Shown in pieces: positions 27,384 to 44,473 of a DNA stretch of 48,849 bases (position 1 is the stretch's first letter; each line of letters starts with the position of its first letter). The translations under genes were made by a program, and so were the position numbers. Below the pieces are notes generated by a model, which was given only the letters and a program-made list of their open reading frames with translations, did no database searches and was not told where the DNA came from. Source of the stretch: a virus; IMG/VR virus record IMGVR_UViG_3300005578_000006, positions 1-48,849 of that record; one strand, written 5' to 3'.

Positions 27384-28820
27384 TCAGAACTTATCGACCG
27401 CGTACTCGGTGGGGTCCTCGACCTTCGCCATCCTGAACGCGATCTTCCGCATCGAGCACGGACCGCAGTCGCCGCAGTGGACGTCCCCGTTCTTGTAGCA
27501 CGACCAGGTGTGCTCGAACGGCATTCCCTGGCTCGCACCGAGCTGCACGATGTCGTGCTTCATAGCGCCAGCGAGAGGGTCACTGAACCTCACCCGGGTG
27601 TACGGCTTGACCGCGTACGGGATGAGGTCGCGCCACTTGTTGACGAACTCCTGCTCGTTGTCCGGGTACCCACCGCACGACTCCTCCTGGTTGGAGCCGA
27701 GAGCGATCGTGTCGTACCCGTGCTTCTCCGCGTAGGCCACCGCCAGTGCGAGCATGACCGTATTGCGTGCGGGCACCCACTCGTGAGCGAACTCGGCACC
27801 CTCCTGCCCCTGTGCGATCTCCGTTACGCCGTCCGTGAGGGGGCTGTCCGCGTGCTCCGTGAAGAAGTCCATCTTCACGTAGTGGACCTTCGGGTCGTTG
27901 ACACCTTCTCCCTCCATCGCATTCGCGAGCGACTCGACCGCACGGACTTCGTGCTTCTCCGAACGTGTGCCGTACTGGAAGTGCAACAGGTCGACGTGAT
28001 TGCCCGTCCGGTGGTGCAGCCACGCGACCGTACCGCTGTCCAGGCCCCCACTGCACACGACCAGCGTACGCGGCCGCTTCGGGCGTTCGTACAGCGACCA
28101 GTGCTGGTGCTCGACACCTTGAACGTACCCCGCTCGGTACGGTCCGAGTTCCACAGGTGAGGGGTCGAGCAGTGGGTTCTCGACTAGGCCCATGAGGTAC
28201 GCCTTCTGAGACGCGAACAGCACTCGGTCACCGTGCGTGCTGCCGAGCATGAACAGCGGCTTGTAGTTCGTGGCGTACCACATCTTGTCGGGCTGGTGTC
28301 GATTGACGGCCAGGATCGCGAACGACCCCTGCAGCCGAGCAAGACCTGCCTGGAATCCCCACATCTGGAACGCCATCGCGATCACGTACGAGTCGATCCG
28401 CGTGGGGGGCTTGAACGGCAGTCCTTCTTCCGTCCCAGCGTTGAACTCGTCGATGATCTCCTGGTCGTTGGAGATCGTCCCGTTGTGCACGATCGTCCAG
28501 TCCGCATGGGTGAACGGGTGCATGTCGTCGAGTGAGGGGTTGAGCACCCACTCGTGTGCCGGCTCTCCGCGCCGCGTACCGATGACGGTCGACTTCACCA
28601 AGTTCGGGAGAACCATCGCGTTACTGGATCCGGCAGCGTCACCCTTCTTCGTGACGGGATCGCTCATGTCCCACGGTAGCTGAGTCAGTCCCCACGTGTC
28701 CCGACCGCGTTCCTCCGACTCCTCGAAGAGGACGGCAAGTGCCTCTGTGTGGTCCGTGTTGATCGCCGACTCCAAGACGTGCGACCCGCCACCGAACAGC
28801 GCACCGAAGATGCTACACAT
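27384..28820 (-). CDS. gat-queC: GAT-QueC: amidotransferase-preQ0 synthase fusion
   Basis: 478 residues from ATG behind GGAGGGTGCG, so Cys2 becomes the N-terminal nucleophile (MCSIFGALFG). Residues ~1-245 are a class II glutamine amidotransferase (VHNGTISN at 111-118). Residues ~250-478 are QueC with the PP-loop SGGLDS (257-262) and a C-terminal zinc site (SCYKNGDVHC, GDCGPC). QueC makes 7-cyano-7-deazaguanine from carboxydeazaguanine and ATP. The fused domain is thought to supply ammonia for a further amidation to the archaeosine base, as in crenarchaea and coliphage 9g. Last gene of the modification cluster; no terminator precedes the next promoter. Confidence 0.9.
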   Translation of the reverse strand: MCSIFGALFGGGSHVLESAINTDHTEALAVLFEESEERGRDTWGLTQLPWDMSDPVTKKGDAAGSSNAMVLPNLVKSTVIGTRRGEPAHEWVLNPSLDDMHPFTHADWTIVHNGTISNDQEIIDEFNAGTEEGLPFKPPTRIDSYVIAMAFQMWGFQAGLARLQGSFAILAVNRHQPDKMWYATNYKPLFMLGSTHGDRVLFASQKAYLMGLVENPLLDPSPVELGPYRAGYVQGVEHQHWSLYERPKRPRTLVVCSGGLDSGTVAWLHHRTGNHVDLLHFQYGTRSEKHEVRAVESLANAMEGEGVNDPKVHYVKMDFFTEHADSPLTDGVTEIAQGQEGAEFAHEWVPARNTVMLALAVAYAEKHGYDTIALGSNQEESCGGYPDNEQEFVNKWRDLIPYAVKPYTRVRFSDPLAGAMKHDIVQLGASQGMPFEHTWSCYKNGDVHCGDCGPCSMRKIAFRMAKVEDPTEYAVDKF

Positions 28821-29013
28821 TCGCACCCTCCGGCAAGTCGAACTCACCGTTCTTGACACCCTCGAGGAACGTCAGCCACTCCTCAGGAGTGAACCACGTC
28901 TCCGCTCCCACGGGGTTACGCACACCGACGTGTGGGATGCCGTCCTGCACGTTGACCTGAACTTCAACGCACCCTGTCTCCCGGCAGAAGCTAGACTTCT
29001 TCCACTCTCCCAC
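28813..29013 (-). CDS. DUF397 domain protein (66 aa)
   Basis: GTG start with AAGGAG at about -12. The whole protein is a DUF397 domain: WKKSSFC, ETGCVEVQVNVQDG, then VRNP and FTPEEWLTFLEGVKNGEFDL. In actinomycetes these small proteins pair with XRE regulators or act as anti-sigma/antitoxin-like partners. In this phage it stands alone between dpdA and gat-queC, overlapping both (23 and 8 bases). It may be captured from the host and act on a host regulator. Confidence 0.85.
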   Translation of the reverse strand: MGEWKKSSFCRETGCVEVQVNVQDGIPHVGVRNPVGAETWFTPEEWLTFLEGVKNGEFDLPEGANV

Positions 29014-30635: not shown

Positions 30636-31385
30636 TCACTTGTCCTCTTCGGCACCAAACAGGAGGACGTGGTCGCGCAGCGTCATGTTGAACCGCCGGT
30701 CGAGGATGGGGCGTTCGAGCTTGCGGACGGTGTCGAGCAGCTTCGGGCCGTTCTCGCCCTCAGGCATGATCCACACGTTGTGCGGGTCGATCTGGATGGC
30801 GGAGACGATGTCGTCGACCTCCTGGAGGTCCGCTTCCGTCTGCACCACGAACTTGAAGTCCGCACCGAGCTCGCGGAACTCCGTCAGCACACCGGGCACG
30901 TACCGCTCCTCGAGCGCGTTGCCGCTGTGGCTGAGCTTGGGACTCACGTTCCACTGGATGCCACCAACGAGACCCGGGATGGCTCGCGGTGACCGTGTAC
31001 CGGACGTCTCGAACGAGAGCGACCAGTCTCGTCGGTCGTTGTCGAACGCCGTGACCAGTTCCTCCATCGCATCGATCTGGAGCAACGGCTCCCCACCGCT
31101 GATGATCACCAGGCCGCCACGCGGCATCATCTCACCGAGCTCGTCCACGGCACCCTGAACGTGAACCCGCCGCATCTCCTTCTCGGGGTCGTACGGCTTC
31201 TCCACCGTCGCGTGCAGCTTCACCTGTCGCTCCGTGAACACCCACGTGAACGGCGTGTCACACCACGAACAGTGGAGGTGACACCCGCCTGTGCGAATGA
31301 ACCCAGCGTACTGCCCGCGCTGGCGACCCTCCCCCTGCCAGATCGGACCGTAGATCCGCGTCACCAACAAATCCCGATTCGTCAC
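30636..31385 (-). CDS. queE: 7-carboxy-7-deazaguanine synthase (radical SAM)
   Basis: 249 residues; GTG chosen because the codon overlaps the upstream stop (TAGTG) and AAGGAGAC lies before it. Radical-SAM signature C-x3-C-x2-C at residues 35-42 (CHLHCSWC), an early IYGPIWQGEG substrate loop and VIISGGEPLLQ. It converts carboxytetrahydropterin, the QueD product, to carboxydeazaguanine. The two other steps are encoded on either side. Confidence 0.92.
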   Translation of the reverse strand: MTNRDLLVTRIYGPIWQGEGRQRGQYAGFIRTGGCHLHCSWCDTPFTWVFTERQVKLHATVEKPYDPEKEMRRVHVQGAVDELGEMMPRGGLVIISGGEPLLQIDAMEELVTAFDNDRRDWSLSFETSGTRSPRAIPGLVGGIQWNVSPKLSHSGNALEERYVPGVLTEFRELGADFKFVVQTEADLQEVDDIVSAIQIDPHNVWIMPEGENGPKLLDTVRKLERPILDRRFNMTLRDHVLLFGAEEDK

Positions 31386-31471
31386 TACCTGTCTCCTTGC
31401 CGGGCCGGAACCCACTCGTCGAACCATGTGTCATTCGGGTACGTCTTCACGAGTCTCGGTTCACTACTCAC
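31385..31471 (-). CDS. Possible linker ORF between queD and queE (28 aa)
   Basis: A 28-codon ORF (VSSEPRLVKTYPNDTWFDEW...) that overlaps the queD stop by eight bases and ends in the TAGTG overlap with queE. Its SD is weak (GGAC). It is acidic/aromatic with no fold signature. The coupling geometry is the only support. It may serve to carry ribosomes from queD to queE. Confidence 0.3.
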   Translation of the reverse strand: MSSEPRLVKTYPNDTWFDEWVPARQGDR

Positions 31472-42427: not shown

Positions 42428-42456
42428 AGTATAATGTGTGTTCCCATCGAAATCAA
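42428..42456 (-). promoter_or_regulatory. Family B promoter
   Basis: On the minus strand: TTGATT, 17 bases, TATACT. Near-symmetric arms GTGTTCCC (42437-42444) and GGGAAACAC (42459-42467) surround the -35. Drives the 217-aa gene and probably the structured RNA and helicase genes behind it. Confidence 0.72.
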
Positions 42457-42480
42457 GCGGGAAACACATGGTTTTACGAC

Positions 42481-42545
42481 GATTTACGGACGGTTCGTAC
42501 TTGCGCAACGTATATGTCACAGTTCGTACGAACCATCCGTAAATC
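42481..42545. repeat. Large inverted repeat of two opposed family A-like boxes
   Basis: Arms of 20 bases (42481-42500 and 42526-42545; 19 of 20 pair) around a 25-nt loop. Each arm reads GTACGAACC-TCCGTAAATC outward, which resembles the spacer and -10 of family A. It lies four bases after the stop of the leftward membrane gene and before the next promoter. It could be a bidirectional operator or a U-less terminator. Confidence 0.6.
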
Positions 42546-42548
42546 GGG

Positions 42549-42746
42549 TTAGAGCGTGTTGATGATGGCCACAACGACGTGACAGCTGATGTACAGGGTG
42601 GAGAACAGCAGGAAGCCGAAGATCCAGCACCCGCTCTTCTTCTTGGCCGGCTTCGAACCGCGTCGGCTCTTCCACGTCGGCTGTTGCCGGTTGTACGCAC
42701 CACGCATGAACCGGTCGTCCCCTCGGCCCAGGTCGTGATCCGCCAC
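42549..42746 (-). CDS. C-tail membrane protein (65 aa)
   Basis: GTG sharing a base with the upstream TAG (TAGTG). Polar, basic first 38 residues (RQQPTWKSRRGSKPAKKKSG), then one hydrophobic helix (CWIFGFLLFSTLYISCHVVV) ending I-I-N-T-L. Topology: basic domain inside, C-terminal anchor. Role unknown. Confidence 0.6.
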   Translation of the reverse strand: MADHDLGRGDDRFMRGAYNRQQPTWKSRRGSKPAKKKSGCWIFGFLLFSTLYISCHVVVAIINTL

Positions 42747-42943
42747 TACACGACCCCCAGTGCGACGTTGAGGAACGCGAACGTCCAGGCACCGATCTCC
42801 AGCAGCTGCGTCTTGCAGCTCCGACCCATCGGGTTACGCACTTCCTGCATCGCCACCACGTCACGCACAGCCGCGTGGTTGTCCATCTCGTACTTGGACA
42901 GCCCCGCCGGATCGTGCGTCTCCCAGTACTCCGATTCGGTCAT
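42746..42943 (-). CDS. C-tail membrane protein (65 aa)
   Basis: ATG behind GGAAGGTGTGACC. Acidic/helical first 45 residues (TESEYWETHDPAGLSKYEM) and a C-terminal hydrophobic segment (LLEIGAWTFAFLNVALGVV) that ends the protein, so it is tail-anchored. Coupled to the next membrane gene by TAGTG; the two may form a pair. Confidence 0.6.
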   Translation of the reverse strand: MTESEYWETHDPAGLSKYEMDNHAAVRDVVAMQEVRNPMGRSCKTQLLEIGAWTFAFLNVALGVV

Positions 42944-42959
42944 GGTCACACCTTCCCCA

Positions 42960-43208
42960 TCAGTTGTACCCCAGTTGGATTCCACCGTCGAAGTGCTGAC
43001 CCTGAATCGCGCTGCCGGTCACCGGACCGCTGATCGTGTTGGTCGCACCACCGGACTTCCGCTTGCCTACTCGCGGGTCGACGTACTCCTTCGTTGACAG
43101 GACGCAGTAGTCCAACGGACCCTGCTCGCGCTCGCACAGGTCGATGAAGTCAAGCATCTCGTCCCGAGATGAGAACTCGACGATCAACTTCCGGTTCTCA
43201 TGCTCCAC
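42960..43208 (-). CDS. Small protein with amyloid-like (RHIM/BASS-type) motif (82 aa)
   Basis: GTG behind GGGAGGCACGACA. Residues 1-50 form an alpha/beta domain (NRKLIVEFSSRDEMLDFIDL) without a known family. Residues ~56-80 read NTISGPVTGSAIQG and then a FDGGIQLG end. This matches the pattern (N-x-I/V-S-G-x-V-x-G-x3-Q-x5-GG) of actinobacterial NLR-associated amyloid signalling motifs, relatives of the RHIM with its V/I-Q-x-G core. In hosts such motifs pass activation from a sensor to a cell-death effector. A phage copy could be a decoy. The match is by eye. Confidence 0.62.
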   Translation of the reverse strand: MEHENRKLIVEFSSRDEMLDFIDLCEREQGPLDYCVLSTKEYVDPRVGKRKSGGATNTISGPVTGSAIQGQHFDGGIQLGYN

Positions 43209-43281
43209 TGTCGTGCCTCCCAGCCATCCGGAAGCCCCACACGAGCAGGGCACCACCCACCACGAACCCGATCCACCACAC
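43198..43281 (-). CDS. Membrane microprotein (27 aa)
   Basis: GTG behind GGAGGCCTGAC. Almost the whole peptide is one hydrophobic helix (WWIGFVVGGALLVWGF) with a short basic tail (RMAGRHD). It starts one base after the upstream stop and overlaps the next gene by 11 bases. Too small for family assignment. Confidence 0.48.
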   Translation of the reverse strand: MWWIGFVVGGALLVWGFRMAGRHDSGA

Positions 43282-43282
43282 G

Positions 43283-43561
43283 TCAGGCCTCCTTGCGCTT
43301 CGGGACGAACGGCCACAGCAGGATGACGGTCGCGACCAGGATCGCGACGCCCAGCTGCACGATCGTCGGCATGTCGTGCCTCGGCTCTTCCGTCGTGTCG
43401 TACTCGTTGTCGCCCCAGTAGCCGAAGTCGGCGTAGTCACCGTCGTCCCGGGAGCGGTCGTCGTTCACTTTCGGTCTCCTCAACAGTAGGTAGTTCACCG
43501 TCGGGTGGACGGCGGTCAACATGACCACGATCAGCACCACCGCCCACCCGGCGTCAGTCAT
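43283..43561 (-). CDS. Two-span membrane protein (92 aa)
   Basis: ATGA overlap with the upstream gene. Hydrophobic helices at about residues 5-27 (WAVVLIVVMLTAVHPTVNYL) and 66-86 (TIVQLGVAILVATVILLW), with an acidic, Tyr-rich loop between (DGDYADFGYWGDNEYD) and a basic end. Probably an early envelope protein, for example in superinfection exclusion; the role is a guess. Confidence 0.6.
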   Translation of the reverse strand: MTDAGWAVVLIVVMLTAVHPTVNYLLLRRPKVNDDRSRDDGDYADFGYWGDNEYDTTEEPRHDMPTIVQLGVAILVATVILLWPFVPKRKEA

Positions 43562-44442: not shown

Positions 44443-44473
44443 AAGGGGTTCCACCAAAGTTTCCCCAGAACTT

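Follow-up and report, generated by a model that had tools for sequence, protein, structure and literature searches.

A small phage protein with a C-terminal tail resembling the amyloid signalling motif of actinobacterial NLR-type sensors, and similar tails in other phages

The gene and its surroundings

The window analyzed here is the whole of an IMG/VR virus record, 48,849 bases in length, which has genes for terminase, portal, DNA polymerase, helicase and primase, and whose large terminase is nearest to those of Streptomyces phages such as Bogota and LazerLemon (42-46% identity). On the minus strand, an open reading frame at 43208-42960 encodes a protein of 82 aa, which in translation of the window reads VEHENRKLIVEF...KSGGATNTISGPVTGSAIQGQHFDGGIQLGYN and ends at a stop codon at 42962-42960. 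The frame has a GTG start, and the region 43206-43224 on the same strand shows the upstream sequence GCTGGGAGGCACGACA followed by this GTG, with a ribosome-binding site GGGAGG located 7 nt 5' of the start. The first-pass annotation, which was made from the sequence without database searches, had given the same frame, coordinates and length, and was right in all three.

The N-terminal half of the protein (residues 1-56, 43041-43208, minus strand) is predicted to form a small beta-alpha-beta domain followed by a KRKSGGA linker, and the AlphaFold single-sequence model of the 82-aa protein shows this beta-alpha-beta half at moderate confidence (mean pLDDT 71.6); a fold search with the model returned no significant match. 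Neither residues 1-56 nor the 82-aa protein fell into any family in searches of Pfam, PHROG, NCBIfam and PADLOC, searches of 2.9 million viral contigs and 50,697 phage records returned no homolog of the whole protein, and no paralog was found within the window. The N-terminal half is hydrophilic and has neither a TM segment nor a hydrophobic helix, the maximum 19-residue hydropathy of the protein being 0.39. This agrees with the earlier suggestion of an unrelated small N-terminal domain, as the half matches no family, is not of an effector kind and is found in a phage. With this hydropathy, a predicted beta-alpha-beta fold and no hydrophobic transmembrane helix, identity as a BELL-type effector was rejected.

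Four microprotein genes adjoin the 82-aa gene on the minus strand. The first, directly upstream, encodes a 27-aa single-TM microprotein (43198-43281, recognized by its SD and hydropathy) and overlaps the start of the 82-aa gene, and a 29-aa single-TM microprotein is located at 43283-43372. Downstream, there are a 65-aa microprotein with a C-terminal hydrophobic segment (42746-42943) and a 52-aa single-TM microprotein (42549-42707). The hydropathy peaks of the four (1.5-2.4) bear out the cluster of membrane microproteins described in the first-pass annotation, and the position of the cluster, together with promoter-like sites at 44444 and 42456, suggests that it may be expressed early.

Several further features of the window were observed. 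Two promoter-like sites on the minus strand, 45061-45032 and 44444-44415, have identical hexamers (TTATCA, 18 nt, TATACT) and are located upstream of small-gene blocks, and may represent a repeated phage promoter. A 21-nt inverted repeat (42480-42546, 95% complementary, 25-nt spacer: CGATTTACGGACGGTTCGTAC / GTACGAACCATCCGTAAATCG) separates the microprotein cluster from the gene that follows; it lies close to the promoter-like site at 42456 and is a possible operator or terminator. In addition, a glutamine-amidotransferase/QueC-like protein and a radical-SAM protein are encoded at 27384-28859 and 30636-31427, respectively, on the minus strand, and could belong to a 7-deazaguanine DNA modification, an anti-restriction feature.

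The tail and the motif of actinomycete sensors and effectors

The tail of the 82-aa protein, NTISGPVTGSAIQGQHFDGGIQLGYN (residues 57-82, 42963-43040, minus strand), contains the motif proper in residues 57-79 (43040-42972). When the phage tail was searched against 72,556 plasmid records, two weak matches were obtained (E about 6), both from Nocardiopsaceae and both small proteins adjoining NB-ARC/TPR or ATPase genes, and two motif queries widened the host set, all of it drawn from plasmids, to Streptomyces, Kitasatospora, Nocardia and Amycolatopsis. In these hosts the motif directly precedes the nucleotide-binding domain in TPR proteins (two checked TPR sensors scored above the Pfam NB-ARC cut-off), and it also forms the C-terminus of small proteins adjacent to the NB-ARC/TPR sensors. 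The clearest pair was found in Nocardia, in which a 111-aa protein ending in NNQISGTVSGNALQARDIQGGINF directly before its stop codon adjoins a sensor with the N-terminal sequence SSHLSGSAADVVQARDVHGGIHF (L192). Such an arrangement, with the motif at the sensor N-terminus and at the C-terminus of an adjacent small protein, defines bacterial amyloid signalling pairs (PMC7889193). One Streptomyces sensor pair (L188) is followed by a helicase gene and by one of type I-E CRISPR, which is a defence-type neighbourhood.

Two other arrangements were noted on the plasmids. Four linear Streptomyces plasmids (L187, L188, L189 and L191) have tandem NLR-like genes with a 4-nt overlap and N-terminal motifs. 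In three actinomycete plasmids (L061, L062 and L193), the first motif of effector-like proteins is followed by another shared one (GRDVIGVQN or GRDVIGTQH). This second motif is similar to the N-terminal sequence of the neighbouring NLR (ERNVIGVQN, GRDFVGVAN, ARDLVGVAN), and a single protein may therefore act for two sensors.

A host-only HMM was built from 18 motifs of actinomycete plasmids, namely the N-termini of NB-ARC/TPR sensors and the C-termini of neighbouring small proteins, with no phage sequence included. Among the 901 open frames of the window, the 82-aa protein scored 18.0 bits (E=1.2e-4) and the runner-up 4.6 bits. None of 180,200 shuffled frames reached 18 bits (best 12.8), the whole 82-aa protein gave at most 12.7 bits when shuffled, and shuffling of the tail alone reached 18.0 bits once in 200,000 trials. 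Frames from loci not picked by the correct motif pattern also stayed below the score of the tail (0/11,145; best 13.7 bits), and the motif pattern occurred once in the window against 0 expected from 100 shuffles. When the profile was split, the effector side fitted best (19.0 bits, compared with 15.7 bits for the NLR side). The matched positions follow N.[IV][ST]G.V.G..[IV]Q[AG]..[IF]..G, and the window tail departs from the consensus of the hosts in a few positions: a proline follows the first SG, QG replaces QA, and F replaces I. The Streptomyces sensor L190 also has QG and F (VQGRDFYGG), which fits adaptation to a particular sensor and is no proof of it. Judged by its sequence, the tail of the 82-aa protein is of the motif type of actinobacterial NLR-type sensors and their adjacent effectors, and the C-terminus of this type that had been proposed in the first-pass annotation is thus supported by the actinobacterial host loci and the host-only HMM. 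No NB-ARC match was found in the window record, so the 82-aa protein would be a motif carrier outside a two-gene signalosome.

The first-pass annotation had also used the label RHIM for the tail, which proved wrong. The RHIM-like BASS3 reference peptide, VDLRDAKGVQVGDGNVQINRF from Frankia ORT49035, has a VQVGxxxxVQ core (PMC8086366), and a Streptomyces BASS3 motif requires the glutamines Q113 and Q120 for formation of foci (PMC9815663). In a direct letter comparison, AIQGQHFDGG of the window tail stands against GVQVGDGNVQ of the reference peptide, and the tail does not present an (I/V)Q(I/L/V)G tetrad with a second Q seven residues later. As the tail has no VQVG core and no second glutamine at that spacing, RHIM/BASS3 identity was rejected. 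The window tail may fall within one of the large BASS families of actinobacteria.

Tails of the same type on further phage proteins

In a scan of 2.9 million viral contigs, the motif pattern had 7 matches, and three of these have clear C-terminal tails on proteins of unrelated kinds. The first is an 82-aa Zn-ribbon protein ending in RNVITGTVTGSVIQADHITGPITFQ, encoded by a temperate phage whose contig has genes for integrase, tape measure and endolysin (L056); the second is a 213-aa methyltransferase ending in RNSITGSVTGSVVQAGNIDGGLSL, encoded by a siphophage contig with portal, terminase and tape measure (L058); and the third is a 116-aa Cys-rich protein ending in HNEITGTVGGPIIQAGTIENGITFN, encoded by a 151-kb myophage with major head protein and tail sheath (L059), each of the three sequences being followed by the stop codon. 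The second half of the motif, which is outside the requirement of the pattern, was present in all three (with one substitution in L056), and only 1-5 residues separate the motif end from the stop codon. As the three tails were picked out by the motif pattern, their E-values depend on this selection; what is independent are the C-terminal position, the phage context and the graft described below. Neither a TM segment nor a known toxic or membrane-killing domain was found in the four C-terminally tailed phage proteins. The earlier idea of a phage-carried motif is strengthened by the three further tails on unrelated proteins, with the RHIM name dropped. A search of 49-50 kb each of Bogota and LazerLemon, two terminase relatives of the window phage, yielded no such motif, and Streptomyces is a genus possessing motif-bearing NB-ARC/TPR sensors.

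The methyltransferase of the siphophage has relatives with 61-68% identity in three other viral contigs, which end at 174-178 aa, before the tail, and weaker relatives in the actinophages DSL-LC01, prophiGD91-2 and Phrappuccino; all of these relatives end at 170-179 aa. At the DNA level, the contig of L058 is about 120 bp longer than that of its relative L204 between the methyltransferase end and the start of the next gene, and conserved sequence flanks this insertion on both sides. The tail therefore appears to be a clean insertion, and no other single finding speaks as strongly for a gain of the motif by phages as a module. Comparison with the relatives indicates that the tail-less methyltransferase is probably the ancestral state, loss of the tail in all relatives being less likely.

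Other matches were of different kinds. L054, L057, L181-L183, L197 and L198 matched the patterns in tail-fibre, antisense or otherwise unrelated frames and were rejected. L055 (1751-2434) and L060 represent one candidate gene with an internal motif (GNSVTGTVHGTVVQAGDIHSGVDL), and the L055 contig has a portal gene. A looser pattern, from which the leading N.[IV][ST] was omitted, gave almost only chance matches among the matches listed and serves as a specificity control. It also retrieved, from an isolate-derived phage contig (L180, 311-853, minus strand), a protein of 180 aa that has an NLR-type motif at its N-terminus and whose body is probably helical; its gene is antisense to and just upstream of the portal gene and looks like a moron.

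Possible roles of the tail and known systems

We favour the reading that, with the 82-aa protein, the phage imitates an immune signalling motif of the amyloid type and blocks host suicide by a decoy or cap, and we consider the case for it and the case against it to be about equally strong. Activated actinomycete sensors are thought to template the motif of the effector into amyloid, by which the membrane-attacking domain of the effector is triggered. In the phage protein, the motif has the effector orientation (C-terminal) and is joined to what is predicted to be a small soluble beta-alpha-beta domain, with no membrane-attacking one. The protein is most likely made during infection, and it would join the growing sensor-effector amyloid and occupy or cap its ends, so that the true effector would be kept unconverted and host suicide would be delayed. 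We infer amyloid formation by the tail, its contact with a host sensor or effector, and the blocking outcome. Three considerations favour a block: the four proteins with C-terminal tails have no membrane segment or recognized toxic domain, a phage for which searches returned no integrase would suffer from early triggering, and herpesviruses employ amyloid motifs in this manner on proteins of unrelated kinds (PMC7375649, PMC12845177).

A self-assembly or address tag seems rather unlikely. Such a tail would polymerize or co-localize a phage protein without contact with host immunity, and its likeness to NLR motifs would reflect shared amyloid chemistry or common origin. Proteins of differing kinds, as they carry the tails here, would be expected for a generic tag, but the match is position-specific and not one of general amyloid composition, as seen in the shuffles of the 82-aa protein and of its tail, and a motif of host type occurs in phages of at least three lifestyles.

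It is unlikely that the tail is an activator and not a blocker, which nucleates host sensor-effector amyloid or recruits effectors and in this way kills a second phage (or, at a chosen moment, the infected cell) in a form of exclusion. The records of the window, the siphophage and the myophage, which may be incomplete, yielded no integrase or resolvase, so lysogeny-type use is not evident there, and early host death would harm a lytic phage; on the side of a trigger are the integrase of the one temperate carrier (L056), the moron-like placement of the L180 gene, which directly precedes portal and has the opposite strand, and the ability of amyloid motifs to seed as well as cap.

We regard it as improbable that the 82-aa protein originated as a host effector which the phage captured and keeps as cargo, for example in lysogen defence, and which the host NLR still activates. 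The effector-side profile fits best and the C-terminal motif is the effector arrangement, but the hydrophilic N-terminal half of predicted beta-alpha-beta fold has no TM segment or hydrophobic helix, the window record has no NB-ARC gene, and in L058 the motif was apparently added to a phage enzyme. Lastly, chance resemblance of a glycine-rich C-terminus, for which the shortness of the motif (about 24 residues) could speak, is most improbable of all, as neither the shuffled frames nor the frames from unpicked loci reached the score and the motif recurs at the C-termini of phage proteins.

Taken over all carriers, actinophages appear to have captured the amyloid signalling motif repeatedly, and its likeliest use is to decoy or cap the NLR signalosomes of the host. 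Further, with a likelihood that we judge to fall a little short of even, actinophages of different lifestyles would have grafted the host NLR amyloid motif repeatedly and independently onto protein C-termini so as to sabotage death signalling. This would be an equivalent, in phages, of the RHIM decoys of herpesviruses, and it would speak indirectly for an antiphage function of amyloid NLR systems in filamentous bacteria. Since the output of bacterial amyloid NLR systems was called unexplored (PMC7889193), their antiphage role is our suggestion, for which the phage carriers of the motif, pointing to an arms race, would speak. The 82-aa protein, and the methyltransferase with and without its tail, are small reagents for a direct test, and a positive outcome would show that bacterial viruses, like those of animals, can mimic amyloid immune signals. 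Among the open-licence papers searched, none described an NLR amyloid motif on a phage protein, and this is weak evidence of novelty.

Compared with the BASS of NLR/BELL pairs (Dyrka et al. 2020, as relayed in PMC7889193 and PMC8086366), the phage tail shares a short Gly/Asn/Gln-containing motif, known there from actinomycete NLR N-termini and adjacent effector C-termini, and the C-terminal placement as in effectors, but here it belongs to a phage protein without BELL or another known effector domain, and the phage has no NB-ARC gene. The RHIM-like BASS3 of Frankia ORT49035 is likewise an amyloid motif of actinobacteria in which Q and G are conserved, whereas its VQVG...VQ core is absent from the window tail. 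Phage decoys and inhibitors of bacterial immune signalling are similar in that a phage mimics a host signalling component. Among animal viruses, VZV ORF20 is a capsid protein with a decoy RHIM (PMC7375649), and M45/vIRA of MCMV is a viral RHIM decoy (PMC12845177). As in these viral decoys, a virus-encoded motif on an unrelated domain is found here, in the phage context, the unrelated N-terminal half and the L058 graft. Both consist of a host amyloid death-signalling motif on an unrelated viral protein; in herpesviruses this inhibits death, and in bacterial hosts it may do so, the phage tail being another motif that is located at the very C-terminus.
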